A DNA stretch of 43,987 nucleotides, from IMG/VR virus record IMGVR_UViG_3300041411_000128, positions 1-43,987 of that record. The stretch is one strand, 5' to 3'. The notes under the pieces are model-generated. The model was not told the origin of the DNA and did no database searches. It saw nothing but the letters and a program-made list of their open reading frames with translations. The translations under genes and the position numbers were made by a program. This document shows, in pieces, positions 28,122 through 43,987 of the stretch. Every line of letters begins with the position of its first letter. The stretch's first letter is position 1. This stretch comes from a virus.

Positions 28122-29447
28122 ATGGCCAACTATCGCTATATGGCTGAGCGTGATATCGAATACGGCGCAGCCAACGACGAATACGATTTGCATCTGGTAC
28201 AGGGTGATCGGTTTACCATGTACCGCCACGGTGAAGTTTATGTGGTGCAGCACGAAGCAGAACCAGAAATCATTTTCAAACTGACCTTGAAAGAAGGCAA
28301 CGCGCTGCACAATATGAGCGATGAGCTTTTGAGCGTCGAAGTCGATCCGGATAACCCGCCGTATCTGCTGTTCAAACCGAAGTTCGAAATGGTGCCGTTG
28401 CTTTACGATTATTTGAACAACACCTATTTCAACAACGAATGCCCGGTTGTGAAATTCCGCAAGACCACGAAAAGTTCTGTGTGGGGAATGGCGCAACTTG
28501 AATGGCTGAAAGGGAAACCGGTTTACACGTTCCTGATCAACGAAAGCTCGATGGTTGACCGTGTGCTTTTCACGAACACCGTCGCGCACGAAATGATTCA
28601 CCTGAAAAACTTTGCGAAGGGTTACAAACTTCACAAGGTCGATCCGAAATCTGCAAAGGATCATTTGCACGACGACCACGGCCCAATCTTCCAAGAAGAA
28701 ATGCGCCGCATGAACGCGAAAGGTTTCCACATTCTGCTGGCCGCAACACACGAAGAATTCCAACGTCACGCGACCGAGGAATTTTACGCGATTGTGGCGC
28801 TGGAAATGCAGGGCCAACGCGTTGCATCGTGGAATTCGTGGTACACAGCCAGCACACTTAACGAGGACGACACAGAGCGTCTGGCGGCCCAGCTGAAAGA
28901 CCTGAACCCTCATTCAGAGTACACAATCAAGCTGATCCACACCAAAGACCGGAACGTCACACACGGCAATCACATCAAATCCACGAAAACATTCACGGAT
29001 TCGACGTTGAAAAAGAAATTCTCGGGTGATATCGACCTGAAGAATGCCGAGGTTCTGTACACCACTTATTTGCGTCCGTCGATTCACGTTGAATTGCCAG
29101 ATTACAAAGAAGTGCCGGATCTTTACGCGTTGCCACTCGACACGTTCTACAAATCCATGCGCAGTTACACCGACGACCGAATGGTGCTGCGTGCGAAATG
29201 GATGAAATTTCCGGGCAAGATGTTGAGTTCGCAAATCGACAAGAAGTTCTCGGCGCTGGTTGGCCGCATGAACCGTAACGCGATTGACGACGCCGACGTG
29301 GTGAATTATTTGAACGATATTCGCGCAGCGTATGCGGATCGTTTCACGTACCAACAATATGTGGATGCGATGATGGCATTCATCAAGAAATACGATCACA
29401 AAGGCGTGCTTGCAGAATACGCCAAGATCATGAAACTTATTGCGTGA
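28122..29447 (+). CDS. SprT-like zinc metalloprotease
   Basis: 441 residues. VAHEMIHL gives HExxH (His156-Glu157-...-His160), followed by a basic helix and DDHGPIFQEEMRRMNAKGF, the third zinc ligand 'HG..F......in' typical of SprT/Spartan proteases. The family cleaves DNA-protein crosslinks or acts as a host-takeover protease. The C-terminal ~200 residues are not part of the domain; a fragment repeats the SprT-type basic pattern but is otherwise unrecognised. Starts immediately after the previous stop. Cellular target unknown. Confidence 0.75.
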   Translation: MANYRYMAERDIEYGAANDEYDLHLVQGDRFTMYRHGEVYVVQHEAEPEIIFKLTLKEGNALHNMSDELLSVEVDPDNPPYLLFKPKFEMVPLLYDYLNNTYFNNECPVVKFRKTTKSSVWGMAQLEWLKGKPVYTFLINESSMVDRVLFTNTVAHEMIHLKNFAKGYKLHKVDPKSAKDHLHDDHGPIFQEEMRRMNAKGFHILLAATHEEFQRHATEEFYAIVALEMQGQRVASWNSWYTASTLNEDDTERLAAQLKDLNPHSEYTIKLIHTKDRNVTHGNHIKSTKTFTDSTLKKKFSGDIDLKNAEVLYTTYLRPSIHVELPDYKEVPDLYALPLDTFYKSMRSYTDDRMVLRAKWMKFPGKMLSSQIDKKFSALVGRMNRNAIDDADVVNYLNDIRAAYADRFTYQQYVDAMMAFIKKYDHKGVLAEYAKIMKLIA

Positions 29448-30041: not shown

Positions 30042-30694
30042 TCGGGAAATTCATCGTATTGGAATCAATCGAGGCCGCTGGTAAAGGGACTGCGACCACC
30101 TATATCACCGAGTACGTGCGACGGCGCAGCATACCGTTTGCATTTACGCGTGAGCCGGGCGGTACTGAATTTGCCGAACCGATTCGCGAACACATGTTGA
30201 AATGGGAAGGGAAAGTGCCGCCGATTTGTCAGGCGCTTCTGTCCTACGCGGCACGCTGTGAACACACGGAACAAATGATTATTCCAAAGCTCGAAAGCGG
30301 CATTAACGTTTTCAGCGAACGCTATTACGGATCGGCCCTTGCTTATCAGGGGCAGACATACGAACACACGAAAGCAGTGCATGAATTGGCACTGCCTCAT
30401 TTGCGTAAACCGGATTTGACGATCTTCCTCGACCTGCCGCCTGAAGTCAGCATGAAGCGTATGCACGATTCGCGCACGGCCCAAGGAATTGAACTCGATG
30501 AATTCGAAAAGAAACCAATCGAATATTTCCGTAATGTTCGGGACACGTATTACGATTTGATGGACGACACTTGGGCAATCGTTGACGCGGAAGCTCCGCT
30601 GTCCGAAGTGAAGAAAAACATCATCGCCCTTCTCGACAAAGTATTGGGAATTACACCTTATGAAAATGACGCTTGCATTGGCGGCCACCAGTAA
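30038..30694 (+). CDS. tmk: Thymidylate kinase
   Basis: 218 residues. P-loop FIVLESIEAAGKGTATT (GxxGxGK family; the usual Ser/Thr after Lys is Gly here, followed by Thr), REPGGT (substrate dTMP loop), and ERYYGSALAYQG (the 'DRY..S..AYQ' motif) followed by lid residues. It converts dTMP to dTDP for DNA synthesis. The last 35 bases overlap the next gene. Position next to a nuclease and the topoisomerase gene fits a nucleotide and DNA metabolism block. Confidence 0.85.
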   Translation: MIGKFIVLESIEAAGKGTATTYITEYVRRRSIPFAFTREPGGTEFAEPIREHMLKWEGKVPPICQALLSYAARCEHTEQMIIPKLESGINVFSERYYGSALAYQGQTYEHTKAVHELALPHLRKPDLTIFLDLPPEVSMKRMHDSRTAQGIELDEFEKKPIEYFRNVRDTYYDLMDDTWAIVDAEAPLSEVKKNIIALLDKVLGITPYENDACIGGHQ

Positions 30695-31085
30695 AAAATA
30701 TCTGAGTGGCGGCCTAATGATTCGGCTTGCGAAGAACTATCCGGATTTGCGTGAGTTGGGCAGCCGTCTGTTGCGCTTGCCGATTATCCCGCGTGGTAAC
30801 TTCGTTCCGAAATTGCCAACCAATGACGACCAACTGATCAAGTACGCGCAGCAGAATAAATTCACGCTCTATTACGGTTATCGGGTTTACAAAACCGAGG
30901 ACGGAAAAGATCAGCTGGAACCCCTGCTGATGTGCGTTGATGACAAGGGCCGGGTAGTTGAAACGGAAAAGAATCGTTTGGATAACACGTCGAGTTACGT
31001 GGGGATTCGTATCCCGGCAGACGATATCAAAAGCCGCCGCTACGCCAACAAATTCAACCGAATGGATTACCTGAAGGCCCACTGA
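30660..31085 (+). CDS. Tagged protein, unknown body (first of the tagged cluster)
   Basis: 141 residues beginning MKMTLALAATSKK, a member of the recurrent N-terminal peptide family. The ATG lies inside the end of tmk, 35 bases before its stop, and the tag confirms the start. The body is a mixed alpha/beta chain with LRELGSRLLRLPIIPRGNFV, no domain recognised. Stop overlaps the next ATG by one base. Confidence 0.6.
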   Translation: MKMTLALAATSKKYLSGGLMIRLAKNYPDLRELGSRLLRLPIIPRGNFVPKLPTNDDQLIKYAQQNKFTLYYGYRVYKTEDGKDQLEPLLMCVDDKGRVVETEKNRLDNTSSYVGIRIPADDIKSRRYANKFNRMDYLKAH

Positions 31086-32767
31086 TGGAAATGACAATTG
31101 CAGCCTCAACCGCGCCACCGGGCGCAGCGGATGCGTTCATTAAACTTCTGATCGCGATCTACAAGGCGAACGAATTCGACTACGGTACGAATTTCCAAAC
31201 CAAATTGAAGAAGTGGAACGAACAGGCGCAACCGTTCCTCGAACAGTACGCGATCAAGCGCACCTTTGCCAAAACTTTGACCATGTTGTGCAGTGGTGAA
31301 GACGTATCAGCCGACAAATATTCGATTGTTGTTGCTGGCTGCTTCGATTCACTGAAGAAGAAAAAGAAAGCATTCGACAAAGACAAAGGTTTGTCCAAGC
31401 TGCAATTGAGTTTCCTGAATGACGTGCGTCTGGCCTACAAAGGATCAGAGGGCGCGGGCAAGCGGATCATGCAGAATGTCGGCTACTTCAAAGATTCTCA
31501 TATCTCGAAAATGTTCTTGCACGAAGACGAACACGTAAACACTTCGGTGCAAAATACGCTGTACGATCGGTTGGCCCAACACGTGAAAACTCACGGCAAA
31601 GTTGACGGCCATGTGATGCCGAATACCACGCTTGAGAAATGGCGGGATAAAGCGAAAGAAGTTGGCGGCAATCTGACCGAACACCAAGACTATTTGGACA
31701 TGCGCCGCCAGCGCAAAGCGATTGCAGATAAAGCGATTGCAAACATTGTCCGGGCCAGCGGTGAACACATCGTGGACGTGGACGTAATCCGCGAACAAAT
31801 GAACGGTGTGCAGCACGATATCCCTGATTGGTTTGTCGGCAAGATCGACGACAAGGGGAATTACTTCACGACTGACGGTTTGCAACTGCTGAATAAACCG
31901 ATTGGCGAAGGTCACATGAACCCGAATTACAAAGCGGGATCAACGGTTTATTATTGCCAGTACAAAGCACCGTTCGCCGCCAACATGTCGAACGTCTACA
32001 CGATTGCAGCGCGCACCGAAGGCCGTGTGCAATCTTTCAATGTCGTGCAAAACATGCTGCCAGACGTGACGAAGTATGTGAAGAAATGGCTGCCTGATTT
32101 GGCGAAGGGGCCGGGTTCGTTGCGTGGTGTTGCGGCTGCTGTCTGTGAAACGATTTACCAGACAAGTGCGCGTATCGGTTCTACCCGTGGCAATACCGCA
32201 GGCGAAACCACCTACGGCATTTCTACACTGCTGCGAAAACACGCTCTGTTCAATGATCAGCGTGTGATTCTGAAATACTTGGGCAAGAAGGGCGGTGCGC
32301 AAAAGCACATTATCAAATTCGAAGATCAGCGGACGCAGATGCTGCATGCTGCACTCGACGAATTCCTGTACGAAAAGAAACCTACGGAATACATTTTCAC
32401 TTTCCGTGGCAAACCTTTGTCGAACTCCCAAGTAAACGGTTATCTGCGTGACCTCGGATTTCCTGAAGGATTCTCCATTCACAAATTCCGCAAATTGCGT
32501 GGTACTGCAATGGCGAAAACCTTGATGGATAAATGCCCGTTCGGTGCCCGCGCCCGTGATGCAGACGTAAACAAATGGATCGAGACTCAATGCCTACGCA
32601 TCGGTAAAGAACTAGGGCATTTGGCTGGCGAGAAAGTGACGGCCACCACGGCAATTGCAAACTATATAGACCCATCGGTGTTCCTGCCTGTTTACGAAAA
32701 AACGAACACGCGCCCAAACTCCAAAATCCAGAAAGCGATTGACCTCGCGACAAAGAGTGCAGAATAA
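31085..32767 (+). CDS. Type IB DNA topoisomerase, tagged N-terminus
   Basis: 560 residues, opening MEMTIAASTA (tag). The catalytic domain is in the C-terminal 200 residues: TSARIGSTRGNTAGETTYGI with Arg363, then YLGKKGGAQKH (Lys401, the beta-hairpin lysine), FSIHKFRKLRGTAMA (Arg469/Arg472, the second catalytic arginine site), GHLAGEKV (His512) and IANYIDPSVF with catalytic Tyr527. This is the poxvirus/bacterial TopIB arrangement, relaxing supercoils via a 3'-phosphotyrosyl link. The N-terminal 330 residues are a larger-than-usual helical and charged domain, unrecognised. Tyrosine recombinase is the alternative, but the KxxR/H and TopIB GTRxxxxGxTT-type block favours TopIB. Confidence 0.75.
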   Translation: MEMTIAASTAPPGAADAFIKLLIAIYKANEFDYGTNFQTKLKKWNEQAQPFLEQYAIKRTFAKTLTMLCSGEDVSADKYSIVVAGCFDSLKKKKKAFDKDKGLSKLQLSFLNDVRLAYKGSEGAGKRIMQNVGYFKDSHISKMFLHEDEHVNTSVQNTLYDRLAQHVKTHGKVDGHVMPNTTLEKWRDKAKEVGGNLTEHQDYLDMRRQRKAIADKAIANIVRASGEHIVDVDVIREQMNGVQHDIPDWFVGKIDDKGNYFTTDGLQLLNKPIGEGHMNPNYKAGSTVYYCQYKAPFAANMSNVYTIAARTEGRVQSFNVVQNMLPDVTKYVKKWLPDLAKGPGSLRGVAAAVCETIYQTSARIGSTRGNTAGETTYGISTLLRKHALFNDQRVILKYLGKKGGAQKHIIKFEDQRTQMLHAALDEFLYEKKPTEYIFTFRGKPLSNSQVNGYLRDLGFPEGFSIHKFRKLRGTAMAKTLMDKCPFGARARDADVNKWIETQCLRIGKELGHLAGEKVTATTAIANYIDPSVFLPVYEKTNTRPNSKIQKAIDLATKSAE

Positions 32768-32769
32768 AT

Positions 32770-33051
32770 ATGGAAATGCAAATTGCTTTGGCGGCAGAGC
32801 CTGTTTACCCGGTCGATAAGTTGCCTAAAGGTGCAAAAGTTATCGGCTACGAAGTCTATCACCAGAACACCAAGAAACTGTTGGGCCGTGGTGAAGCGTT
32901 CACCGTGAAACAGGCCATCAAACGTCTGGAATTTCACGCAGCATCCAACATGACCGTAGACCTTACGGTTCTCGCGATGGATGGTGAACACAAAATCAAA
33001 ATGACTGACGCTTACACTCTGAAATCCACCGGCCCGGTGAAGGTTGTTTAA
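32770..33051 (+). CDS. Tagged small protein, member of the 'GYE' paralogue set
   Basis: 93 residues: MEMQIALAAEP tag, then LPKGAKVIGYEVYHQNTKKL, then LGRGEAFTVKQAIKRLE and a beta strand (VDLTVLAMDGEHKIK). Paralogous to the genes at 33052 and 35939 (shared G-x-K-[VI]-x-[GA]-Y-[ES]-[VI], 'A..x.I..', and a C-terminal DG-x-x-x-x-K/R). Starts three bases after the topoisomerase stop. No known domain. Confidence 0.65.
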   Translation: MEMQIALAAEPVYPVDKLPKGAKVIGYEVYHQNTKKLLGRGEAFTVKQAIKRLEFHAASNMTVDLTVLAMDGEHKIKMTDAYTLKSTGPVKVV

Positions 33052-33423
33052 ATGGAATTGCTGATCGCTGTAGCCAGTAACAAAATCGACAAAGGCAATC
33101 TGATTCCGGAAGGCACGAAAATTCAAGCCTACTCGATTCACGATCAGCACACGAACAAGTATCTCGAAGCGGGTTCGCATGCGCCGTGTTCTGCTGCTGT
33201 CGCTCTGAAGAAAATCAAAGAATTCACCAAGCAACGCGGCTCGGTAAATGTGGAATTTGATTTGCTGGAACCAAGCGGGCGCACTATCCGCGCCAAGCGT
33301 TCGTATTCCATGAACTACGGCGATTTGATCCAACCGTACAAGGGATCTGAAAGCGTGTTGCAAGACGTGAAATCCCCAACACCGAAACCTACAAATCAGA
33401 CGAAGAAAATTCGCAACATCTAA
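33052..33423 (+). CDS. Tagged small protein, second 'GYE' paralogue with basic tail
   Basis: 123 residues: MELLIAVASNK tag, then IPEGTKIQAYSIHDQHTNKY, LEAGSHAPCSAAVALKKIKE, FDLLEPSGRTIRAKRSYSMN. The body aligns with the 32770 protein over ~80 residues; the last 35 residues (QDVKSPTPKPTNQTKKIRNI) are Lys/Pro-rich and additional. The one-base gap to the previous gene suggests they arose by tandem duplication. Function unknown. Confidence 0.6.
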   Translation: MELLIAVASNKIDKGNLIPEGTKIQAYSIHDQHTNKYLEAGSHAPCSAAVALKKIKEFTKQRGSVNVEFDLLEPSGRTIRAKRSYSMNYGDLIQPYKGSESVLQDVKSPTPKPTNQTKKIRNI

Positions 33424-33456
33424 CTGCGTATCCACCAGAAAGAAGAGCGCAAATAA

Positions 33457-33828
33457 ATGGGAACAGTAAGTGCAGGTGGTTCGATTGGCCCGGTGTATGT
33501 ACCGGATGCAAAAGCATTGCAGAAATTGGAAGGTTATCCGGAAACAATCCATGTCGATGATTTGGGTGAATTCGGTTTCCATCAAAGTGTGATCAATGAT
33601 TTGCGTGTGCATCAAATGCTTGTGTCGAATGCTCAAGTGCGTGCATGGATCGAGCGGGGCATTCCCGGTGGCTGTGTTGGTGCCTTCGCTGATATGCCGG
33701 GCGAGCAGCACAGCCACCGTGGCCCCATAGGGCCTTGTGGGCCTTCTATCACCGCTAGCAAAAGCGCTCTGCCTTGGTACGTCGAACATTTGATGCGTCA
33801 ACAACGACGCCAAAAAAGGACGGTCTAA
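33457..33828 (+). CDS. Unknown protein without the tag
   Basis: 123 residues. Helical body, followed by a collagen-like stretch (HRGPIGPCGPS) and a basic C-terminus (LMRQQRRQKRTV). There is a 33-base leader before it, whereas its tagged neighbours touch. The lack of the tag makes it a useful negative control for the tagged set. No domain recognised. Confidence 0.5.
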   Translation: MGTVSAGGSIGPVYVPDAKALQKLEGYPETIHVDDLGEFGFHQSVINDLRVHQMLVSNAQVRAWIERGIPGGCVGAFADMPGEQHSHRGPIGPCGPSITASKSALPWYVEHLMRQQRRQKRTV

Positions 33829-33831
33829 TAA

Positions 33832-34215
33832 ATGGAAGTTCTAATTGCGTTAGCCGCGAACCAGAATCAAGTTAAAAGATTCTTCGATAATCTGGAATCA
33901 CGTGGATTTAAAATCGTTGAAACGGAATATGGCACACCGTCTGCCACGCGGAATTACCGGGATGAAAGTTCAGGTAATCACAAATGCACGGTGAACGTAG
34001 GTTGCTCTGAATTCAATAACGGCGGCGAATCCTTTTACGAATATACCGCGTGGGTTGACACCGTGACCGAGGACGGTATCACGGGCGAGCCTGTTATGAC
34101 TCAAGCGTCGAACAGCTTTTCAATGACCACGCAAGACAACGAGCGCCTTACGCGTTTCGTTTATTTCATCGACTCAATCCTCACACAACGTGCATGCGTG
34201 GGGGATAGAGACTAA
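33832..34215 (+). CDS. Tagged protein, unknown body
   Basis: 127 residues: MEVLIALAANQNQ, then helix VKRFFDNLESRGFKIV, then beta strands ending in a helix (RLTRFVYFIDSILTQRACVG). ATG directly after the stop of the previous gene (taataaATG). No known domain; the body is unrelated to its tagged neighbours by eye. Confidence 0.6.
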   Translation: MEVLIALAANQNQVKRFFDNLESRGFKIVETEYGTPSATRNYRDESSGNHKCTVNVGCSEFNNGGESFYEYTAWVDTVTEDGITGEPVMTQASNSFSMTTQDNERLTRFVYFIDSILTQRACVGDRD

Positions 34216-34225
34216 AGGAAAACCA

Positions 34226-34957
34226 ATGAAAGTTAACGGCAATCTCATTTTGGTGGAAGGCGGGGTCATTGAAAATCTGACGTTGCCTTCTGGTGGTACA
34301 TTTCCAGCTAATAGCAATCTCGGGGAGCTTTATACGCTTTCTGAGTCTGAGCTTGAAGGCATGGCCGATGGGTTTTACCACCACGACGGTACAGCTTGGC
34401 AGAATTTGCCCACGTTGGTAGAAGTAACTGCATTGGTTGACGCAATTGTTGTCGGCCCATCGGAACCTTTTATTTCGTTCAAGCCTGTATTTAACACCCG
34501 TACAATGATCACAAGTTCCCTCGCTGCTGGTAGTTATTGGGCTTTGGAAAGTGTGGCTATGGTTGCCACTACGGTGGGCGTCGGTACACCTGTACTTCCC
34601 CTGTTTTACTATGATCCTGCCGATTATGCAGTCGGGACAAAATTCCGACTTGCTGTAAACATAAATCAAAACGAAACCGCTGGGTCTGCATCGAATAATA
34701 TCAGCGTGGGCGTGTGCGAAGTGTTGCGGCCTGCATCCGGTGGCGGTGGTACGAACGTCGTTATTTACGAAGCGGCCCCGGCTGACAAGGCGAATGTCCA
34801 GTTCACCGCACTCGCCAGTCGGGCCACGCTCAACATGGTTTCCACGGAAATCGAAATGCCTGTAACGGCTGGCTTCTACGCCTTCCGCGTCACAATGTCT
34901 GCTGCCAACAGTGCGTCTGCCACGCACCTAGACATTACTTTGCAGGCGGAATACTAA
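34226..34957 (+). CDS. Fibre-tip-like protein A (tandem paralogue)
   Basis: 243 residues from ATG 34226 (RBS aaagga). N-terminal strands VNGNLILVEGGVIENLTLPS, ...FPANSNLGELYTLSE, ...GFYHHDGTAWQNLP ('LGeLy......y..dGtaW..l') match the pattern of fibre and tail collar proteins with a small receptor-binding knob. The C-terminal ~140 residues form a beta-sandwich ending ...YAFRVTMSAANSASATHLD. It shares block after block with the next gene. No tag. Probably a virion surface protein. Confidence 0.55.
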   Translation: MKVNGNLILVEGGVIENLTLPSGGTFPANSNLGELYTLSESELEGMADGFYHHDGTAWQNLPTLVEVTALVDAIVVGPSEPFISFKPVFNTRTMITSSLAAGSYWALESVAMVATTVGVGTPVLPLFYYDPADYAVGTKFRLAVNINQNETAGSASNNISVGVCEVLRPASGGGGTNVVIYEAAPADKANVQFTALASRATLNMVSTEIEMPVTAGFYAFRVTMSAANSASATHLDITLQAEY

Positions 34958-35653
34958 ATGGAAATAAACAAACTCGCTCTAACCGAAGGTGGTGTTTTTA
35001 CCAACCTTACGCTGGCTCCGAATCCAACGTTTCCTGAAAATGGAAATCTCGGCCAGCTGACTTCGATAGATGGCAAGTTCTACCATCACGACGCTTCGAT
35101 GTGGCGAAATATTCCGTCCAAGCAAGACGTGTTGGATTTGATCAATGATCGTCTAACCAACGGCAAATTCATTTCGTTTAAAACACTCTTGAATTCTCGC
35201 GTGTGGATCAACGGCAGGGGCGGCGGAAACTTTTGGGCGCAGAATGGCTTTGCCCTAACTGCCGTCACGGTGGGCGTCGGTGTAAACACGCTGCCTATGC
35301 TCTACTACGACCCGGCTGATTATCCTGTCGGAACAAAATTCCGCGTGTCCATAAATACCAGCGTGAACGCTGCCAACACGTCTCCGACAACGGTCGTCAC
35401 AATCGGCTTTTGCAAAGTGCTACGACCCGCATCCGCAGGCGGTGCCGGTAACTTGGTTATCTACACACCAGAAAGCCCGGATGTAGTGAACATGGAATTT
35501 TTGTCGTTGCCTGCACGGTCGATGCAAAACCATGTGACCGAAGAATTTTTTATGCCGAACGAACCGGGGCTGTACGCATTCCGCATTCAACTTAGCACCA
35601 GTAACAATTCGTCCACGTGCCATTACGATATAAACCTTCAAGCGAAATACTGA
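34958..35653 (+). CDS. Fibre-tip-like protein B (tandem paralogue)
   Basis: 231 residues: MEINKLALTEGGVFTNLTLA, ...PTFPENGNLGQLTSIDG, FYHHDASMWRNIP, FISFKTLLNSRVWI, ...YYDPADYPVGTKFR, ...GFCKVLRPASAGGAGN, YAFRIQLSTSNNSS. Direct tandem duplicate of the 34226 protein (shared FYHHD, FISFK, YYDPADY-VGTKFR, VLRPAS, YAFR). MEINKLALTEGG looks like, but is not, the tag: Asn/Lys and the following TEGG match the paralogue, not the tag. Directly adjacent to the previous stop. Confidence 0.55.
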   Translation: MEINKLALTEGGVFTNLTLAPNPTFPENGNLGQLTSIDGKFYHHDASMWRNIPSKQDVLDLINDRLTNGKFISFKTLLNSRVWINGRGGGNFWAQNGFALTAVTVGVGVNTLPMLYYDPADYPVGTKFRVSINTSVNAANTSPTTVVTIGFCKVLRPASAGGAGNLVIYTPESPDVVNMEFLSLPARSMQNHVTEEFFMPNEPGLYAFRIQLSTSNNSSTCHYDINLQAKY

Positions 35654-35704
35654 GGGTCAAAGAATCAATCCCGAAACACAACTAAAAGAAATGGAGAAAC
35701 AACC

Positions 35705-35890
35705 ATGTCTATCTCAATCGTTGGTGTGCTGATTTTCGTACTGGTCGTCGCCCTTGTTTGGTGGATCATCGGTTTGATTCCGTTGCCACCAATGGGCCGT
35801 CGCGTGGTACTGATCATTTTCGGTATTGTGCTGATTCTTTTCCTGTTGCAGTTCGCTGGTTATGGCCCCGGCATTCGGATTACAGCCTGA
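35705..35890 (+). CDS. Small two-helix membrane protein (Thivi_2564-like)
   Basis: 61 residues: helix 1 ISIVGVLIFVLVVALVWWII, loop LIPLPPMGRR, helix 2 VVLIIFGIVLILFLLQF. This resembles the Thivi_2564-type small membrane proteins ('W.i..iPLP.p...i...l'). By size and shape it could be a class II holin, but no endolysin is next to it. RBS 'ggagaaac'. Confidence 0.65.
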   Translation: MSISIVGVLIFVLVVALVWWIIGLIPLPPMGRRVVLIIFGIVLILFLLQFAGYGPGIRITA

Positions 35891-35938
35891 TTCTCGCCCT
35901 ACGGCATAAATCTTCAGACAAAATATTGAGGGAAATAC

Positions 35939-36214
35939 ATGGAAATGCAACTGGCTTTGGCTGCTGCGAATATGGCACCACGCGGCTACAAAATCATCGG
36001 CTACGAAATCCGTGATGTTAAGCACGGCAATCCGCTGTTGAGCCGTGGCAAAGGTGACAAGCAAGAAGCCATCCGCAACAACATCAACCAGTACACCGAG
36101 CAACTGGATAAAATTGATTTCATCCTGTATCTCGAAGGCGCTGATGGCGACAAGCAAATTCACAAACGTTTCGAATGGGACTCCAACGAAGCTGTCGAAA
36201 TTCCGGTGAAATAA
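35939..36214 (+). CDS. Tagged small protein, third 'GYE' paralogue
   Basis: 91 residues: MEMQLALAAANMAPRGYKII, GYEIRDVKHGNPLLSRGKGD, ...FILYLEGADGDKQIHKRFEW. Aligns with the 32770 and 33052 proteins (G-x-K-I-I-GYE-I, C-terminal DG-x-x-x-x-K-R). Its nucleotide tag is MEMQLALAA in different codons from the others. It sits downstream of the membrane protein with 'gagggaaat' as RBS. Confidence 0.65.
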   Translation: MEMQLALAAANMAPRGYKIIGYEIRDVKHGNPLLSRGKGDKQEAIRNNINQYTEQLDKIDFILYLEGADGDKQIHKRFEWDSNEAVEIPVK

Positions 36215-36391
36215 ATGATCCGTGCATTTGATCTGAGCAAGCTGCATGAGCAGTACGCGAACGAGACGCCAGAACAACAGGCGAAACGCTACGCCGAAAA
36301 CAAAGAACGCACCGAACGCTTTCTGAACCGCTGGAAAGAGTTCGAAGCAAAACATCCAGAACTCGCAAAAACAATGGTGTGTGCCGCATGA
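36215..36391 (+). CDS. Small unknown protein without the tag
   Basis: 58 residues, MIRAFDLSKLHEQYANETPE then a charged helix. Starts at the base after the previous stop and ends with ATGA overlap with the next. A small helical adaptor or chaperone for its neighbours is conceivable. Confidence 0.45.
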   Translation: MIRAFDLSKLHEQYANETPEQQAKRYAENKERTERFLNRWKEFEAKHPELAKTMVCAA

Positions 36392-36819
36392 AAATGGAAA
36401 TCGCAACAGCAGCTGAACCTACCATGCTGCCAAGCCGTTACGCCATTGGCGAACCGGTTTACTTTCACCCGGCGATTCATGATTTCACGCCGGAACAAAT
36501 TCAGAAAAACGCACTGAAAGCCAAGATCATGGGCGTGCGTTTCACGAAGTCGAAAGTGCTGTACGAACTGGCGTTGGATACTGCCCTTGATCCGGGGCCT
36601 GCCGAGTATTACGAAGCAATCCCACTGGCCGATGTGGATTCGTATTTCGTCCTCAACGCAGCCGACGCAATGGACAGTGACCGTTTGCTGGCTGACGTTT
36701 CCTATCTGGCGACAGGCTCTAGTAAAACCCGCACGCCGCAGGAAATCCGGAAGTTCGCGCAATACTTCTTGGCGGTTGCTGCCGACCTTCCGGAACTGCG
36801 TAAAGAACAGGGCAAATAA
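36388..36819 (+). CDS. Tagged protein, unknown body
   Basis: 143 residues starting MKMEIATAAEPTMLPSRYAI, then GEPVYFHPAIHDFTPEQIQK, then helical C-terminus (PQEIRKFAQYFLAVAADLPE). The tag chooses the ATG at 36388 (ATGA overlap with the upstream stop) over the GTG at 36379. GEPVYFHP is a small-barrel-like opening (SH3-like) in style only. No domain recognised. Confidence 0.6.
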   Translation: MKMEIATAAEPTMLPSRYAIGEPVYFHPAIHDFTPEQIQKNALKAKIMGVRFTKSKVLYELALDTALDPGPAEYYEAIPLADVDSYFVLNAADAMDSDRLLADVSYLATGSSKTRTPQEIRKFAQYFLAVAADLPELRKEQGK

Positions 36820-36821
36820 AA

Positions 36822-37121
36822 ATGGCTAAGTCCCATTGGTTTCACGCGAAAGCCTCTAACGCTAAAAAGAAATACCTAAAGAAACATCCGGGTTCTATTT
36901 ACGCGGGTGCCCGTGGCGGTGCGACCAGTGGGAACGGTGCCGCTGCTTACCGGGCAACAGTCGAACACATGCGACAAGAAATTGCGCAGCTGAAAGAGCA
37001 ACTGCACAACAGCAAAGATGAATCTGCGAATGCCACAATCGTAAATCGCCTCATGTCCCTGCAACGAAAGCTCGCTATGTTTAAACGGGCAGCGATGGCG
37101 TCCGCCCGTTCGAGGAAATAA
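36822..37121 (+). CDS. Small basic coiled-coil protein without the tag
   Basis: 99 residues, very basic. The N-terminal SHWFHAKASNAKKKYLKKHP is followed by GARGGATSGNGAAAY and a coiled-coil helix (VEHMRQEIAQLKEQL...), ending SARSRK. Could bind DNA or a membrane; function unknown. It separates two tagged genes. Confidence 0.5.
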   Translation: MAKSHWFHAKASNAKKKYLKKHPGSIYAGARGGATSGNGAAAYRATVEHMRQEIAQLKEQLHNSKDESANATIVNRLMSLQRKLAMFKRAAMASARSRK

Positions 37122-37122
37122 A

Positions 37123-37644
37123 ATGGAAGTGATGATCGCACTGGCGTCCAACGTATCACCGGAAGTTTCGAAGCATATACAGAAAAAACTCAGTGCGTTG
37201 AATCTTGTGTTTCCGAAGGCTGGCAAGTTTCTGCAAGGGGTTGAATATACGGATAGGCTCACGTCTGAATTCGACCGGGCCACACGGAAAATTCGACTCA
37301 GCACCGCGTACACCCGTGGAACTGTTGCAGAGGCTCAATATGGATGCAGTAAATCCAATCCTCCGGGCTTCACCGTGCATGACGGCGAGCATGAATCTTT
37401 TGATGCACTAATCGTTCACGAATTTGCACATTGCATTCACGCGACAATTGCAGAAAGCACAGCAGACGAAGACGACTTCCGCGAATACATGGCTGCGTTG
37501 CGTACTCTGCAAAAAGCGCTGGGCAATCCGAGTGGCTATGCCGCCAAGAATATCAGTGAGTGGACAGCCGAGACATTCACCGCCGAATGGATGGGCAAAG
37601 GGAACGGGCCTCTCATAAAACTTTTCCTAGAAAGGCTAAAATAA
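37123..37644 (+). CDS. Tagged zinc metalloprotease (HExxH)
   Basis: 173 residues: MEVMIALASNVSPEVSKHIQ, then body. VHEFAHCIHATIAE gives HExxH (His99, Glu100, His103; the extra His at 106 may add). A downstream SEWTAETFTAEWMGKG supplies a plausible third ligand (Glu) and Met-turn-like part, as in gluzincin-type phage peptidases. The target is unknown. It is one of two metalloproteases in the window, and the only tagged one. The next gene overlaps by one base. Confidence 0.7.
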   Translation: MEVMIALASNVSPEVSKHIQKKLSALNLVFPKAGKFLQGVEYTDRLTSEFDRATRKIRLSTAYTRGTVAEAQYGCSKSNPPGFTVHDGEHESFDALIVHEFAHCIHATIAESTADEDDFREYMAALRTLQKALGNPSGYAAKNISEWTAETFTAEWMGKGNGPLIKLFLERLK

Positions 37645-38033
37645 TGGAAGTGATGATCGCCCTTGGGGCCAGTATTAAAATCAGTGACCGGGGCGAACAT
37701 TTCGGTAAAGAATTTCGTTCCGAACACGGTTACATCTGCGTGAAGACTGGCGGGCAATTCTCGCCATGCAAACACAGCGTTACTGATTACGTTGTCAACG
37801 AAGAATCTCGCGGACAGGGCCACGGTGATTTCCTGCTGAAGGGAATTGTCCGCACCTACAAATCCGATATCGGCGGGCAGGTCAGCAGCATTGCCAGCCT
37901 GCATGTGTTCTATAAAAACGGATTCCGTCCTGCGCTGAATCTCAATGCATCTTTGGAAGAAACGAAGAAACTTTTCAAAGATGAATGGGGCAGCCTGTTG
38001 ATGGTTTATAAACCGCCGAAGGATTTCACTTAA
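37644..38033 (+). CDS. Tagged GNAT acetyltransferase
   Basis: 129 residues from ATG 37644, MEVMIALGASIKISDRGEHF. VTDYVVNEESRGQGHGDFLL shows the motif A strand and the acetyl-CoA loop RGQGHG, followed by helix LLKGIVRTYK and then SSIASLHVFYKNGFRP, the 'a....Y.k.GF' motif. Short but complete. Acceptor unknown; phage GNATs may modify host proteins. The tag differs in one residue (ALGA rather than ALAA/ALAS). Confidence 0.75.
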   Translation: MEVMIALGASIKISDRGEHFGKEFRSEHGYICVKTGGQFSPCKHSVTDYVVNEESRGQGHGDFLLKGIVRTYKSDIGGQVSSIASLHVFYKNGFRPALNLNASLEETKKLFKDEWGSLLMVYKPPKDFT

Positions 38034-38950
38034 TGGAAATGCAATTGGCATTAGCGGGTAGTTCTATTCTGTATCATCTGATACCGATGGAATACGCAAT
38101 CGAGGCAATGCAAAAAGATCGCTTCCGCCTGATGCCAACCAACGAAGGCGTCGAGGCTGAATTCGGGACAGCGCAATATTTCTTGAGCCTTGCACGTTCG
38201 AAACTTTCCGATTATTTCATCAAGGAAGCTGGCGCCACGCACGTGATTTTCGTGCTGGACGGCCAGAAGATGAACGCGAATTACCAAATCAAAGCGGTCG
38301 ATTATTGGGCGAGCCAGAAGCACGTTTCCAATGACGAAAAGGAAGACCGCCTGTTCGCAAACAAAATGTACATTCCGTGCATTCGCTACATTAAAGAAAT
38401 CCACTTCATGAAAGAGAGCGGCAAGTACAAGGAAAACGAATCGTTGACCTTGGCGCTGCTGGCGAAACGCAACAAGATCGAACTGTTCCAGTACGACGAC
38501 CACAAAGCATTTATCAGACTTGATAAACGTAAGACGATCAAGCTGGAAGTATCGAACATAAAGAAAAAGAAATTCGGTAAGCACGATTGGACACCCGGCC
38601 CCGACTACACGCTCGAAGCATGGTATGTCGCATCGCAAATCGTGTTCAAGGGTGACACGCCGCATTACACGCAGTTCATGGCAGGCGCTAAGCACAAAGA
38701 AGAGCGCAAGGCCCGTGAACGTGTGGCCCGTGATATTCGCAACCTGATTAAATATCGGGATGTGGAAGCGGGGCCTGTACGTGATTTCAACCAGTTGACC
38801 GGGTTCCTCAAAGATCCCCACGACGCTGCCTTCTTGGAAAAGATCAAGCTCGTAAAACGTCGGCTGAAAACAGATACCAAAGGATTTCTTGATTTCGTGC
38901 GCAAGCGCTGGATGACTCAAGAAGAACGAGAAATGCACGGCTTGGAGTAA
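38033..38950 (+). CDS. Tagged protein with an ADP-ribosyltransferase-like N-terminal half
   Basis: 305 residues: MEMQLALAGSSILYHLIPME, ...AIEAMQKDRFRLMPT, ...AQYFLSLARSKLSDYFIK, ...HVIFVLDGQKMNANYQIKAV, DYWAS, ...EDRLFANKMYIPCIRYIKEI. The order 'lYH......a..al......L', 'f.SlaRs', 'v.fvLDg.kl...y.i..vdYw' and 'eDR......i....I..ih' recalls ADP-ribosyltransferase-fold families of the DarT/ART kind and an unnamed phage family. I do not see a complete catalytic triad. The C-terminal half is a basic helical region. T4 Alt, which is also an injected ADP-ribosyltransferase, is the functional comparison. Weak assignment. Confidence 0.4.
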   Translation: MEMQLALAGSSILYHLIPMEYAIEAMQKDRFRLMPTNEGVEAEFGTAQYFLSLARSKLSDYFIKEAGATHVIFVLDGQKMNANYQIKAVDYWASQKHVSNDEKEDRLFANKMYIPCIRYIKEIHFMKESGKYKENESLTLALLAKRNKIELFQYDDHKAFIRLDKRKTIKLEVSNIKKKKFGKHDWTPGPDYTLEAWYVASQIVFKGDTPHYTQFMAGAKHKEERKARERVARDIRNLIKYRDVEAGPVRDFNQLTGFLKDPHDAAFLEKIKLVKRRLKTDTKGFLDFVRKRWMTQEEREMHGLE

Positions 38951-38954
38951 CCGC

Positions 38955-40862
38955 ATGGAAATGCAATTGGCATTAGCCGCCGTAAAGCTGGGCGTTGCGC
39001 GTCCGCTTGTAAAAGGCTGGAATAAAAACGGTTTGGGCGCGCAAGTAATCAAACGCTTCCTGCCGAAGAACAAGAAACAAAAGAAAAATGCGTACCGTAT
39101 ATATCTACCGATCAAACCCACCAAGCAAGTGATCAAAGTTCCACAACCGATCCTGCATGCGCTGTCGGCCAAGGGTTATGCGGTGGACGATTACATTACC
39201 GGTATTGCAGTCGATCAGTCGGGCAAACGCCGGATGCGAATCGGCAAGCTGTTGAAAGATGCAACATTGCTCAAAGAATTCATGAACGATCCACAACGTG
39301 CCGCACACAAAGACGAATTCACGTGTGTTATTTCCTGTCACCCATACGACGTGTTGGCGATGAGTACAGGTCGCCGCTGGGATGAAACCAGTTGCATGCG
39401 TCTCGATCAACCGGGCGTCGGGCGTGGTGGTTCAAATCAGGCGATTGTTAAAAACGATATTGCAGAGGGCACGCTGGTTGCCTACGCGATTTCCCCGCAT
39501 GACACGAATATCAATAAGCCTCATGCACGCCTGTTGATCAAACCTTTTGTCGGCCCGAATGGCGGTATTCTTTTCCGCGTTGAAACTTCGATTTACGGCA
39601 CGCCTATTCCGGGTTTCCGCGAAACGATTTCCAAGTGGTTGCGCAAAGTGAATCAGGGCGCATCTGCTGGCCTGTATCATTTGCTCGATGGTCTGTACGA
39701 CGATGGCATGGGCACACAATACGCGCACGCAGACTACGATTCGACGGCGGATAAAATCGCTGCGTTGCGTAGTGTTTCTGGCAAGACGGAAAGCTCTGTT
39801 AAAGTGTTGTACGAATTGCTCATGAGCGATAAACGTTGGCTTGCTGAATGGCTCAAGCACGCCCTCGAAATTTATCACGGTGACGAATGGGAAGCGTGCT
39901 ATCAGGTCAGCACTTTCTACGGCACCATGCGCGCCACCAGCAACATGAAAGCCCGCGTAACTGCCAAGGCTTTCGGTAAGGCGCTGGACGAACATTTCGA
40001 CGAAAACCTTTTCCTCGATTTCAGTGAACAACTGGCCCCGTTGGAATGGCGCGATGAACTGGTTAAAGCCAGTAAAAAGCTCGCTGATTATGTTGAGCAA
40101 CTTTACGACTTCAAACACTTTGACGGCGAACCACAATCGCCCGATTTCGTGCTGAATCACATCGCTTATTACGATTCGCGCTGGCTCGCTACCATGGAAG
40201 GCCCGGTTGAACCTGCGAAGGTTGCTTCTGCATGGCGCGGGTTTCTGGCAGGCATGTACAAGTGGACTCCGGAACTCGCTAAATCAACCATGCCGGGTTC
40301 TGTGCAGTTGCGCGAACAGGTTGGTTTCTTGTGCGCCATGCTTTCCGTGGCCGACGACAAAACCCTGCGGGTGAATCGTGACACGCTTGCGAAATTGCTG
40401 AAGAAATTCCCGGTTGATTATTACTACACCGAGGAAATGGATAAATTCCTGCGCGCCGCCCGTTACCAAGGCATTTTCAAACGCTACATTAGCCAGCCAG
40501 CAGAAAGCCTTTTGTGTGCCCTCGATAAATCGTGGCCTGCGCAGAATCTGGAATTGATTTCGTTCAGCGACATTTCCATTTTCAGGAAGACAACTTTCGA
40601 AAGCCTGATGAAAGCGAACGTGGACGACATGAACGAGGCGCTGTTTGTCAAGCTGCGCGATGTGTGCCGTCGCCTCGGTTATACCACCACTGAATGGAAG
40701 AAACGTTACCCGTGGACAATGCCGCTGATCAATAAGATCGCACGCGGGCCGGGTGATGAACGTACCATGATGTGGGCCAAAACATTCTTGGACGAAATCC
40801 GTAAATCGGAAGACGAACTCGACGACATTTTCAAAGAACTCGACGGGTGGGACAAAACCTAA
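38955..40862 (+). CDS. Large tagged protein, first of the 'ISCHPYD' paralogue family
   Basis: 635 residues: MEMQLALAAVKLGVARPLVK, then a conserved core of ~260 residues: VISCHPYDVLAMSTGRRWDE, TSCMRLDQP, NDIAEGTLVAYAISPHDTNI, PHARLLIKPF, RVETSIYGTPIPGF, LYDDGMG. The same blocks recur in the 40862 and 43692 proteins. The last ~350 residues differ and are helical with no known domain. The family is unrecognised; conserved Cys, His, Arg and Asp in the SCHPYD/STGRxW/SCMRL blocks would suit an enzyme, but none is assigned. Start is four bases after the previous stop. Confidence 0.65.
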   Translation: MEMQLALAAVKLGVARPLVKGWNKNGLGAQVIKRFLPKNKKQKKNAYRIYLPIKPTKQVIKVPQPILHALSAKGYAVDDYITGIAVDQSGKRRMRIGKLLKDATLLKEFMNDPQRAAHKDEFTCVISCHPYDVLAMSTGRRWDETSCMRLDQPGVGRGGSNQAIVKNDIAEGTLVAYAISPHDTNINKPHARLLIKPFVGPNGGILFRVETSIYGTPIPGFRETISKWLRKVNQGASAGLYHLLDGLYDDGMGTQYAHADYDSTADKIAALRSVSGKTESSVKVLYELLMSDKRWLAEWLKHALEIYHGDEWEACYQVSTFYGTMRATSNMKARVTAKAFGKALDEHFDENLFLDFSEQLAPLEWRDELVKASKKLADYVEQLYDFKHFDGEPQSPDFVLNHIAYYDSRWLATMEGPVEPAKVASAWRGFLAGMYKWTPELAKSTMPGSVQLREQVGFLCAMLSVADDKTLRVNRDTLAKLLKKFPVDYYYTEEMDKFLRAARYQGIFKRYISQPAESLLCALDKSWPAQNLELISFSDISIFRKTTFESLMKANVDDMNEALFVKLRDVCRRLGYTTTEWKKRYPWTMPLINKIARGPGDERTMMWAKTFLDEIRKSEDELDDIFKELDGWDKT

Positions 40863-43618
40863 TGAAACTCGAATTGGCATTGGCCGCCGTGTCCATGAAA
40901 ACGGCACTGAAATACAGTCGTAAATGGAACCGCAATGCACCCATTGTAAAAGTGCTGCAAAACATGATGCCTGCGGGGCCGGGGAAGAAAGGTTTCCGCC
41001 TGTATTTCGATATCGGCACCAACCACAAAAACCATTACACCATTCCACCGGCTGTGCGTTCCGCTCTGCAAAAGGCCGGGTTTGTTGCCACCGATTATCT
41101 GGCGAAGAAGTGCGTCAAAATCGGTGACAAAGAACAGAAGAACGTTTTCAATATCGGTAAGGTAATCGGCAAAGACGCGCACGCGAAAATGGCGTTCGAT
41201 AATGATCCACAATTGCAGAACACCAAACAGGGTGCAATGCAGGTCGTGATCAGTTGTCACCCTTACGACATTATCGGCATGAGTACCGGGCGTGATTGGG
41301 ACAAAATGTCGTGCATGCGTCTCGCTGACGGTGAACATAAATTCAATCCCGGTTCGAATCAGCATTACGTGCGCAACGATGTATCGGAAGGTACGTTGGT
41401 TGCCTACGTTGTTTCGGCTGACGATCAGAATATTCAACGGCCCAAAGCGCGTTGCCTCCTGAAGCCGTTTTACAACGAAGAGGGCCAAGTGCTTTATCGT
41501 CGTGAAACCCGCGTGTACGGCAACCCGGTTCCCGGCTTCGACTTGATCCTTTCGCGTTTTCTGCGCAAGATCAATGCGAATATTCCGGAAGGCACTTTCA
41601 AAATGCCGCACAGCCTGTACGACGACGGTATGGGCAAAGATCATTATCACAACGCATCCAGCGACGACAACCTGACGGTCGAAGACGTGGTAAACGACAC
41701 GGCACACGCTGTGCAATTCATACACCAGCAACTCAAGGCAATGCCCGACAAAGAAACCCGCGATCAGCACGCGGAAAACATCATTGAATTCCTGAATAAC
41801 GAAACGGTAGAAACCCGTTTGAAGGAAACGCAAGTTGATGAAATTGTCGAGGCGCTGAAAGGCTCCAAGGCACTGGTCAACGGCATTCATTTGCTGGCCT
41901 ACAAAAACAAACCGCTCACTTCGGTACTCGCTGAAGTCGGTCGTCGCATTGGTTCTTTCGATAAAACCAAAGGATTTACTCCGGAAGTTTTGAAAGCGTT
42001 GGACGACGATAAAGTCCACGATCTTTCCTACGGTGGCGGCAACCCGGTAATGGAAGCGCTTAGCCGCGTGGAAAACCTGAGCGATCATGAATTGCGCGAA
42101 AATACCCGCATATTCAAAATGATCCTGACCGGCAAGACTCCACCACCTACAAAAGAAGAACTGGAAACATTGCCGAATTGCGCACGCATTTTGAATACTG
42201 CTGCGCACGCTGCCCGCCATATGACAATGTTCGGTGATGATTCGATGCAGAAGGGCGCTTACGCCATTCTCGACCTCGGAATCGACGTTGAAAACCCTAT
42301 CTGGTGGGGGCCTGATGCAGCTGACATGATGTATGCAACGGGCGGCGTGAATCTGTTCCTTAGCTACGTGATGGATAACCCCGGCAAATTGAGTTCTGAT
42401 GCGTTGTGGGCCTGCGATCCGGCAATAACCGCCGTGGCCTTGGCGAATCGCCGCGTATTCCGTTTCATCGACAAGATGGAAGATCGTCAGGTTGCGTACC
42501 TGATGGATCACGTGAAATTGGAACAAATCAAAACGGTTATTTCCAATCCGTATTCGGCGCAGGCGTACAAGGACAACCGCGTTGCACTCGTTAAATATCT
42601 CGACGAAAACACGGAAGTAATCAACACGCTGTTGAACAACTGGGAACCGAAGCACGTTAAAGCATTGGCCGAATACCATCTGCCAGCCGTAATGCATTTG
42701 ACAGACAACGGTATCATTTTCGGTTCGCAAATGGCTGATACCATTCAGGCGCTTATCCCGCCGACGATGGCATGGGAAGGCCCAAAACTGAGTCCTGAAA
42801 CGGTTGATATCGAGAACGCAATTCAGTACATGGTGCAGGCCGGTAATCTGTTGGATAAACCGCTGCATTTGGAACGGAAATTCGATGAGGATTATTTCGA
42901 ACTCCGCGACCTTACTGATGTGGCCGACCACTTCCGTGACACGTGGGCAAACAAGCGGCACAGCCGCACCGATTCGTTCCCGTCGCTGTTGTATAAAATG
43001 GACTTCGCGGGTCAGCGTCCGGACATTTCGCATTCCGATGAATTAATGGAACATTTAGGTGCCGATGCATTCGGTTGGGTTCCTACCGAGAAACTTCCGG
43101 GTGAAGTGCGTGGTTTCCTGAAAATGATTCGTGGCATGGAATTGGAGCCTGCAATTGATGCGCTCTACAACCTGATTAACGCCACGCGTTTGCTGCCACT
43201 CGAAGATATTAATAGTGGCGTTGAGCGCAAGATGGATGAATTGGAAATCATTTATCCTGATCAGGACGCGATGGATGACGACGATTACGAAGAGGCAATG
43301 TCTGTTTACGATGAACAGCGACAGGCATTCGAAGATGCAATTGTCGAAAGCAATTACAAAACTATTCGTCTCAATCAGAAGCTGGTTGATGCCCTCGAAA
43401 AGGTGAAAGATTTCGTAGGCTATGACGAAGACACGGACTACTGGGATGAGGATACCCCAGCAGAACCGTTTGAAGCGGAAATGGAATCCGTTGAGGAATC
43501 CGATTACGAAGACAACGCCAGCCGCGTGCGTGATTTGCGCGGTGAATTGAAATCCGAATGGGAATCCCGCCCGAACGAGCTTCAGGAAATGAAAGACGAC
43601 TCGGGTTTCAGTGAATAA
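40862..43618 (+). CDS. Very large tagged protein, second 'ISCHPYD' paralogue
   Basis: 918 residues: MKLELALAAVSMKTALKYSR, KWNRNAPIVKVLQNMMPAGP, then core VVISCHPYDIIGMSTGRDWD, KMSCMRLADG, NDVSEGTLVAYVVSADDQNI, PKARCLLKPFY, RETRVYGNPVPGFD, LYDDGMGKDHY, as in the 38955 gene. The remaining ~650 residues are helical, with an acidic C-terminus (DDDDYEEAMSVYDEQ, then DEDTDYWDEDTPAEPFEAEM). ATG 40862 overlaps the previous stop by one base; the GTG at 40847 is not preferred because it would not begin at the tag. Ends at a terminator-like hairpin. Confidence 0.65.
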   Translation: MKLELALAAVSMKTALKYSRKWNRNAPIVKVLQNMMPAGPGKKGFRLYFDIGTNHKNHYTIPPAVRSALQKAGFVATDYLAKKCVKIGDKEQKNVFNIGKVIGKDAHAKMAFDNDPQLQNTKQGAMQVVISCHPYDIIGMSTGRDWDKMSCMRLADGEHKFNPGSNQHYVRNDVSEGTLVAYVVSADDQNIQRPKARCLLKPFYNEEGQVLYRRETRVYGNPVPGFDLILSRFLRKINANIPEGTFKMPHSLYDDGMGKDHYHNASSDDNLTVEDVVNDTAHAVQFIHQQLKAMPDKETRDQHAENIIEFLNNETVETRLKETQVDEIVEALKGSKALVNGIHLLAYKNKPLTSVLAEVGRRIGSFDKTKGFTPEVLKALDDDKVHDLSYGGGNPVMEALSRVENLSDHELRENTRIFKMILTGKTPPPTKEELETLPNCARILNTAAHAARHMTMFGDDSMQKGAYAILDLGIDVENPIWWGPDAADMMYATGGVNLFLSYVMDNPGKLSSDALWACDPAITAVALANRRVFRFIDKMEDRQVAYLMDHVKLEQIKTVISNPYSAQAYKDNRVALVKYLDENTEVINTLLNNWEPKHVKALAEYHLPAVMHLTDNGIIFGSQMADTIQALIPPTMAWEGPKLSPETVDIENAIQYMVQAGNLLDKPLHLERKFDEDYFELRDLTDVADHFRDTWANKRHSRTDSFPSLLYKMDFAGQRPDISHSDELMEHLGADAFGWVPTEKLPGEVRGFLKMIRGMELEPAIDALYNLINATRLLPLEDINSGVERKMDELEIIYPDQDAMDDDDYEEAMSVYDEQRQAFEDAIVESNYKTIRLNQKLVDALEKVKDFVGYDEDTDYWDEDTPAEPFEAEMESVEESDYEDNASRVRDLRGELKSEWESRPNELQEMKDDSGFSE

Positions 43619-43621
43619 AAC

Positions 43622-43633
43622 GGTAATTTTATA
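43622..43633. promoter_or_regulatory. GGTAATTTTATA block, second copy
   Basis: Twelve bases identical to 11270-11281, here at the start of the gap between the second and third large paralogues. TATAGT (43630-43635) inside it is close to a -10 box. Confidence 0.3.
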
Positions 43634-43642
43634 GTATGTTAC

Positions 43643-43677
43643 GCTGGGCTGGTTTAGGCTGGCCCGGCTTTCTTTTT
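43643..43677 (+). terminator. Strong rho-independent terminator
   Basis: GCTGGGCTGG - TTTAGG - CTGGCCCGGC (10-bp stem with three G.T pairs) followed by TTTCTTTTT. It ends the tagged operon after the 40862 gene and precedes the third paralogue. Confidence 0.8.
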
Positions 43678-43691
43678 ATGGATCAAAAGAC

Positions 43692-43987
43692 ATGCTAATT
43701 GACTTGGCTTTTATCGGTACAGCAGCGGTTTCAATGCGCAGTGCTTTGAAATACCGCCGCAATTGGGATAAGAACGGCCCGACCGTTCAACTGCTTCGAA
43801 AGTTTATGCCGCGTGGCTCTAAAGGGTTCCGCGTTTACATGCCCATTGGGCACGCACACGCAATCGGCACGATCAACATTCCGTTGCCGGTTCGTTTGGC
43901 AGTTCGCAAAGCTGGTTTCCGTATCACGGATTATCTGGCGAAGAAATGCGTAAAGCTGAACGATAAAGATCAGAAAAACGTGTTCAA
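43692..43987 (+). CDS. Third 'ISCHPYD' paralogue, 3'-truncated by the window end
   Basis: At least 98 residues, frame open at the window end: MLIDLAFIGTAAVSMRSALK, YRRNWDKNGPTVQLLRKFMP, RGSKGFRVYMPIG, ...VRKAGFRITDYLAKKCVKLN, DKDQKNVF. It matches the start of the 40862 protein closely (KYxRxWxxNxP, KGFRxY, KAGFxxTDYLAKKCVK, QKNVF). Its N-terminus is a diverged tag (MLIDLAFIGTAAVS). RBS 'atggatcaaaaga'. Confidence 0.7.
   Translation, partial: MLIDLAFIGTAAVSMRSALKYRRNWDKNGPTVQLLRKFMPRGSKGFRVYMPIGHAHAIGTINIPLPVRLAVRKAGFRITDYLAKKCVKLNDKDQKNVF

Follow-up and report, generated by a model that had tools for sequence, protein, structure and literature searches.

We propose a model for how jumbo phages related to Pseudomonas phage Lu11 load proteins into their heads. 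The DNA analysed here (the window) is the whole of IMG/VR record IMGVR_UViG_3300041411_000128, 43,987 bases, and is a piece of a jumbo myovirus. Twelve of its genes, between positions 30660 and 43618, start with a short peptide, 8-9 residues long, of the form M-[EK]-h-x-h-A-x-A (h, hydrophobic; x, any residue), hereafter the tag. The tag is very probably a capsid-targeting sequence that the prohead protease removes, after which the cargo would stay in the head until it is injected along with the DNA. Its end resembles a protease site, and the same motif occurs in the major capsid propeptide and in a scaffold-like protein of the same phage, so that a removable head-packing label is the most likely explanation. 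In the model, a disordered N-terminal label of about eight residues would draw cargo into the prohead during assembly, probably through contacts with the core/scaffold or the shell. The prohead protease would then cut the label after residue 8 (AxA↓A/S/G, the arrow marking the predicted cut), and the mature cargo would stay in the head and later be injected with the DNA. The same motif would let the protease remove the N-terminal propeptide of the major capsid protein and shred the scaffold. A preliminary description of the window had suggested a targeting or processing tag like that of phage T4. This reading is the best supported, given the motif in capsid and scaffold, the joint change of these with the tag and the presence in the virion of PaBG gp83, which has a related tag; packaging, cleavage and injection are what we infer from them.

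All twelve gene starts read exactly as first described. A degenerate start pattern (A-type, ATG RAR NTN NNN NTN RCN NYN GCN) recovers 10 of the 12 tags with zero other matches in the window, compared with a mean of 0.04 and a maximum of 1 in dinucleotide shuffles; it misses only the degenerate copies at 31085 (MEMTIAAST) and 37644 (MEVMIALGA). An S-type start pattern has no match in the window. Identity between tagged genes falls to background directly past codon 9. The synonymous codon variation claimed for the tags is real, as tag pairs share the same Ala/Leu codon about as often as gene bodies predict (observed versus predicted, 0.36 versus 0.27 at codon 6, 0.25 versus 0.29 at codon 7 and 0.27 versus 0.27 at codon 8). 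The ratio of non-synonymous to synonymous substitution (dN/dS) is about 0.13 for tag codons versus 0.22 for bodies, a rough figure from 14 non-independent orthologue pairs between the window and three relatives. The bodies are mostly unrelated, a claim that proved slightly overstated: the twelve make up roughly nine families. The proteins at 38955 and 40862 are paralogous over an N-terminal domain of ~270 amino acids, and visual comparison suggests that those at 32770, 33052 and 35939 are distantly paralogous. The neighbours called untagged are indeed untagged, as are their Lu11 and HRDY3 relatives where present; a further untagged gene, absent from the original list, lies inside the block at 34958. 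Could the tag be passive, left behind when 5' ends were duplicated or converted between genes, or could it reflect an mRNA effect at translation start? Local copying can happen, as the adjacent genes at 38033 and 38955 start with identical DNA. However, codons are otherwise randomised among the tags, dN/dS is low, the tag is kept on orthologues across large divergence and its amino acids covary with head proteins. Given the differing codons, the unrelated bodies and tags that outlast the replacement of cargo, we regard a passive origin as highly improbable. As a separate observation, TTA accounts for 3 of 9 Leu codons at tag codon 7 versus 2 of 282 in gene bodies, which is probably the usual A/T-rich gene start.

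The nearest annotated relatives of the window are the Pseudomonas phages Lu11 (280 kb) and HRDY3 (314 kb), at 77% identity across parts of the tagged block. PaBG, NCTB and jumbo phages of Dickeya, Erwinia and Yersinia are further relatives, and three metagenome contigs (G001, G002 and G004) were also compared. The A-type pattern matches 10 genes in Lu11, 10 in HRDY3 and 9, 8 and 10 in G001, G002 and G004, and its reversed control 0 in relatives. Nearly all of these matches fall within the orthologous gene block. The main one outside it is a 120-amino-acid protein directly adjoining the scaffold and capsid genes, with the tags MKVYLAIAAS (Lu11_0068), MEMMIALAAS (HRDY3) and MDVQIALAAS (L040). 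Orthologues in related phages thus carry the peptide, whose loss there the preliminary description had held to be the mark of a passive remnant. Tag flavour is phage-specific and largely uniform within a phage (MKIQLAVA in Lu11, ME[ML]xLALA in HRDY3). By BLAST, 68 tagged open reading frames (ORFs), one of which (Alex_20072) is a chance internal match, form 26 body groups, about 25 families; as in T4, a short N-terminal peptide is common to otherwise unrelated cargo proteins. In G001, a close relative whose topoisomerase is 93% identical to that of the window, several cargo genes have been swapped and the tag kept. At the 38033 position the DarT-like protein of the window starts MEMQLALAGSSILYHL, and the distant relative in G001 (24% identical) starts MKMFVALAKDFGSVFHG. 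The G001 orthologue of the 33832 protein has the tag MEVSIALGA on a body of just 36% identity, and topoisomerase IB orthologues start MNVHIAVAA (Lu11), MEMSIAAAA (HRDY3) and MKIDIATAA (G001). Tags stay while cargo is replaced, independently of body and codon choice. A SprT-like protein may have gained or lost a tag: it has a tag-like start, MELAIAS, in PaBG (L018:11062-12408), and its orthologues in the window (28122-29447) and Lu11 are untagged.

What connects the tag with the head? When the tag-end motif was counted in 355 Lu11 ORFs, Lu11_0067 came out far ahead, with 8 sites versus 0.5 expected. This protein, annotated merely as 'ATPase', is very acidic and is encoded between the tagged 120-amino-acid gene and the capsid genes, near the prohead protease. 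Because of its position, acidity and site density, we take it to be a putative scaffold. The phrog_20988 'ATPase' (Lu11 L004:39347-41251, minus strand, and relatives) looks like the acidic scaffold of this phage group; the HRDY3 annotation splits it into two adjacent ORFs. In the scaffold-like proteins A.A[ASTG] occurs 20 times in Lu11, 25 in HRDY3 and 17 in PaBG, versus 5.2, 5.7 and 4.2 in shuffled sequences, and SxS[AS] is not found in those of Lu11 and HRDY3. In JA13 and Alexandra SxS[AS] occurs 11 and 10 times (2.6 and 2.0 when shuffled), and SxS enrichment is far above that of AxA. Glutamate motifs are not enriched in scaffold-like proteins. When every XxY pair was ranked in an open scan, AxA headed the list in HRDY3 and PaBG and came second in Lu11; SxS headed it in JA13, Alexandra and Yersinia phage fHe-Yen9-02. 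The Lu11 major capsid protein has VATA↓S from residue 68, in its N-terminal region. The aligned position reads IATAS, MATAS or MAIAS in other Lu11-group sequences, VIAS in two more distant contigs, SES in JA13, STS in Alexandra and VTS in NCTB. A cut at VATA↓S would take off about 70 residues, in agreement with the size drop of ~20% reported for the PaBG capsid protein (PMC7412058). Lu11_0071 matches the PHROG head maturation protease (E-value 3e-112; no match in Pfam), and the protease gene lies beside the scaffold and capsid genes in a common order in Lu11, HRDY3, JA13 and fHe-Yen9-02; in PaBG, the exception, it is located elsewhere. Other substrates are possible. The LATA↓G of the portal protein (Table 1) may be a further cleavage site, and the portals of Lu11 and HRDY3 have ILATA↓AGN and YLATA↓ASG nearby. 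A small protein near the baseplate genes (Lu11 L002:37132-37356; HRDY3 L003:7212-7460) carries two [ILM]ATAS↓A motifs close to the N-terminus and is a possible further substrate.

The tag also changes between phage groups in step with the head proteins. In the cargo blocks of JA13 and Alexandra tags read, for example, MELLISLS↓K and MELMVSLS↓A. An S-start pattern finds 7 genes in the JA13 block (S-type patterns are noisier than A-type, with up to 2 matches in reversed controls), and the A-type pattern has no match in JA13 or Alexandra. One orthologous cargo family starts MEMQLALA↓AVKLG in the window, MRIQLAVA↓AVPLS in Lu11, MEIEVSLS↓ALTPS in JA13, MELMVSLS↓ALPPS in Alexandra and MQYTDLIE↓ALKPS in Agrobacterium phage Atu_ph07; an uncultured 636-kb phage has LLLE↓KLKLS at the aligned place. 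The last two are T4-style glutamate sites and the only ones to show LxE, LIE↓A being seen in the one tagged family found in Atu_ph07. Rather than in [LI]xE, tags end in AxA in the Lu11 group and in SxS in the Dickeya and Erwinia phages. An ART-PolyVal cargo family likewise switches its tag, MEMLLALAT in G004 versus MELLISLSK in JA13. In the more distant phages BcepSauron, Peetri and RHEph12 there is no clear A- or S-type tag and no clear AxA or SxS scaffold signal. That tag, capsid and scaffold change in parallel is difficult to account for if they are not all read by one enzyme, the prohead protease. We think it fairly probable that the protease preference at P1, the residue before the cut, shifted from Glu to Ser/Ala and that dozens of sites changed in concert, producing a lineage-specific head-packaging code readable from sequence. 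The earlier idea that the tag is a solution independent of T4 is not supported: AxA↓A, SxS↓A and LIE↓A at one aligned position in orthologues suggest divergence from a shared system.

Two explanations do not involve the head. A signal for intracellular localisation, for example to a replication compartment or membrane, would suit the presence of the tag on a topoisomerase and on enzymes with DNA or the host as possible targets, but it leaves the capsid and scaffold motif and the joint SxS change unexplained; in a whole-genome scan the gyrase, DNA polymerase and helicases encoded elsewhere in Lu11 were untagged, and we give this explanation very little weight. A cellular Sec/Lep-type signal peptide, brought to mind by an AxA end that resembles a signal peptidase site, seems to us least plausible of all and almost negligible. 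Eight residues in total leave no space for a hydrophobic core, residue 2 is acidic in most copies (mostly Glu), the basic n-region and hydrophobic core of a Sec signal are not found ahead of AxA, and signal peptidase is a poor match for the SxS and LIE forms that orthologues carry.

Is the tag an address, or is it a leader or maturation switch that the protease removes, cargo entering through other contacts and being activated by trimming? The best-conserved part of the tag is its cleavage-like AxA end, and the motif in capsid and scaffold is a direct argument for processing but no more than an indirect one for targeting. On the other hand, residues 2-5 keep a hydrophobic alternation (charged/polar-h-x-h) that an AxA site does not need, each unrelated body would require its own packaging contact, and in T4 a short leader is sufficient for packaging, according to Mullaney and Black as cited in PMC9024508. 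We therefore consider a leader function alone unlikely. Virion data come from PaBG, whose published table holds 14 bands, gp83 among them (PMC7412058); the monoisotopic mass of gp83, 35,127.30, equals the value in that table. This protein starts MLIKINLLEAVA↓AK. Its tag is of a longer type, which three Alexandra proteins also have, there ending SVS↓A, SES↓A and STS↓A; the corresponding pattern, M-x-LIK[IL][NS]L, matches three genes in Alexandra and one in PaBG. The scaffold-like gp82 is absent from the bands and its neighbours gp80, gp81 and gp83 are present, as expected for a degraded scaffold, which is an argument from absence. The PaBG virion proteins gp257, gp261 and gp263 have no tag, and NSLS↓AA near the start of gp202 is too weak to count.

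Several points weigh against the tag as a capsid-targeting sequence. No measured mature N-terminus of a Lu11-type phage protein was found in the literature, PaBG is the only proteome found (none turned up for Lu11, HRDY3 or the window phage), with one protein of a related, longer tag among its 14 bands, and its topoisomerase gp84 is missing from them. The 'ATPase' protein is itself assigned to the scaffold by where its gene lies, how acidic it is and how densely the sites occur in it. In the Lu11 scaffold AxA takes only second rank, and the NCTB motif is mixed. The Ala/Ser-rich scaffold makes motif counts dependent on composition, though shuffles control for this, and the motif was chosen after the tags had been seen. 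The unusual part would be cleavage after Ala or Ser, a departure from the prohead proteases of T4, the phiKZ group and SPN3US, which cut after Glu (PMC5694885, PMC10052503).

How does the tag compare with known systems? The T4 capsid-targeting sequence, carried by the internal proteins and Alt and cut by gp21, is likewise a short N-terminal peptide on unrelated head cargo, ends in a motif like the prohead-protease site of capsid and scaffold, and has ADP-ribosyltransferases among its cargo (ADP-ribosyltransferase-like proteins here). It differs in sequence and in having Glu at P1 instead of Ala/Ser; moreover, the Lu11-type tag is found on many cargo families in one block, and its targeting and cleavage are predicted from sequence. 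In its apparent working the Lu11-type tag is of the T4 kind, but without the glutamate. Cleavage of scaffold after Ala and before Ser is known from the herpesvirus assemblin maturation site, [VIL]xA↓S, cut by a protease of related fold; we note this as a resemblance only. SPN3US and phiKZ prohead proteases cut at A-x-E or S-x-E, with a preference for Val at P4 and Ser at P1' in SPN3US (PMC10052503). This P4-P1' pattern, V-A-x-?↓S, is close to the Lu11 capsid VATA↓S, and several head proteins there have removable N-terminal propeptides; P1 is Glu there, however, and the propeptides are mostly long (>100 residues) with no short common tag. In bacteriophage P1 an N-terminal segment also sends an injected anti-restriction protein, DarB, into the head, the first 30 residues being sufficient and 9 insufficient, whereas no common sequence was found among the Dar proteins (PMC9024508). 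An earlier description of the Lu11-type tag was not found in the open-access literature, most subscription journals being outside the search.

What are the consequences if the model is right? Many injected proteins of a whole giant-phage group could be listed from sequence alone. The list would hold ADP-ribosyltransferase-like, topoisomerase IB, acetyltransferase-like and peptidase-like proteins and many unknowns, all candidates for early host takeover or anti-defence. The group would also show protease specificity shifting naturally between E, S and A at P1, with substrates that follow, and the tag would be a candidate for a very short address by which proteins could be brought into large phage heads.

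Pfam and PHROG gave no family for most tagged proteins. In the AlphaFold model of the 38033 protein residues 1-9, the tag, are disordered (predicted local distance difference test, pLDDT, < 50). The best Foldseek matches of this model are DarT and tRNA 2'-phosphotransferase, at probability 1.00, and the cargo looks like an ADP-ribosyltransferase. Because T4 packages Alt in its head, we count such cargo in favour of head packaging. ART-PolyVal proteins occur among the tagged cargo of relatives, and ADP-ribosyltransferases have already been argued to be head-packaged in many myoviruses (PMC9503650). Two Atu_ph07 proteins, at 303755 and 304780, seem ADP-ribosyltransferase-like by eye; BLAST and Pfam gave no link and they were not used. 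Matches to the 38955 family begin at residue 1 in phages of Dickeya, Erwinia and Agrobacterium (Atu_ph07). The N-terminal domain shared by the 38955 and 40862 proteins gave a low-confidence model (mean pLDDT 61) with no significant structural match.

Table 1. Tags of the window and the site-like motif of the portal protein (aa, amino acids)
Feature	Protein (gene)	Position	Strand	Basis
Tag MKMTLALAA	141 aa (30660-31085)	30660..30686	+	Pattern match; tagged orthologues in Lu11, HRDY3, G001, G002
Degenerate tag MEMTIAAST	Topoisomerase IB (31085-32767)	31085..31111	+	Pfam Topoisom_I
Tag MEMQIALAA	93 aa (32770-33051)	32770..32796	+	Pattern match, body clustering
Tag MELLIAVAS	123 aa (33052-33423)	33052..33078	+	Pattern match
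Tag MEVLIALAA	127 aa (33832-34215)	33832..33858	+	Pattern match
Tag MEMQLALAA	91 aa (35939-36214)	35939..35965	+	Pattern match, body clustering
Tag MKMEIATAA	143 aa (36388-36819)	36388..36414	+	Pattern match, body clustering
Tag MEVMIALAS	173 aa, HExxH metallopeptidase-like (37123-37644)	37123..37149	+	Pattern match; weak sub-threshold Pfam metallopeptidase match
Tag MEVMIALGA	129 aa, GNAT-acetyltransferase-like (37644-38033)	37644..37670	+	Sub-threshold GNAT match; body clustering
Tag MEMQLALAG	305 aa, DarT/KptA-like ADP-ribosyltransferase fold (38033-38950)	38033..38059	+	Pattern match; AlphaFold model, Foldseek
Tag MEMQLALAA	635 aa (38955-40862)	38955..38981	+	Pattern match; family in relatives
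Tag MKLELALAA	918 aa (40862-43618)	40862..40888	+	Pattern match; paralogue of 38955
Site-like LATA↓G near N-terminus	Portal (22383-24341)	22521..22532	+	

Two kinds of untagged protein within the tagged block deserve mention. Short collagen-like, Gly-rich proteins (GPAGVAGMPG, RGPIGPCGP) are encoded at 33457-33828 in the window and at L002:11598-11984 in Lu11. A 58-amino-acid protein, found in the window (36215-36391), Lu11 (L002:12892-13068) and HRDY3 (L003:30578-30754), ends in MVCAA in all three; in the window its stop codon shares bases with the start codon of the tagged gene that follows (ATGA).

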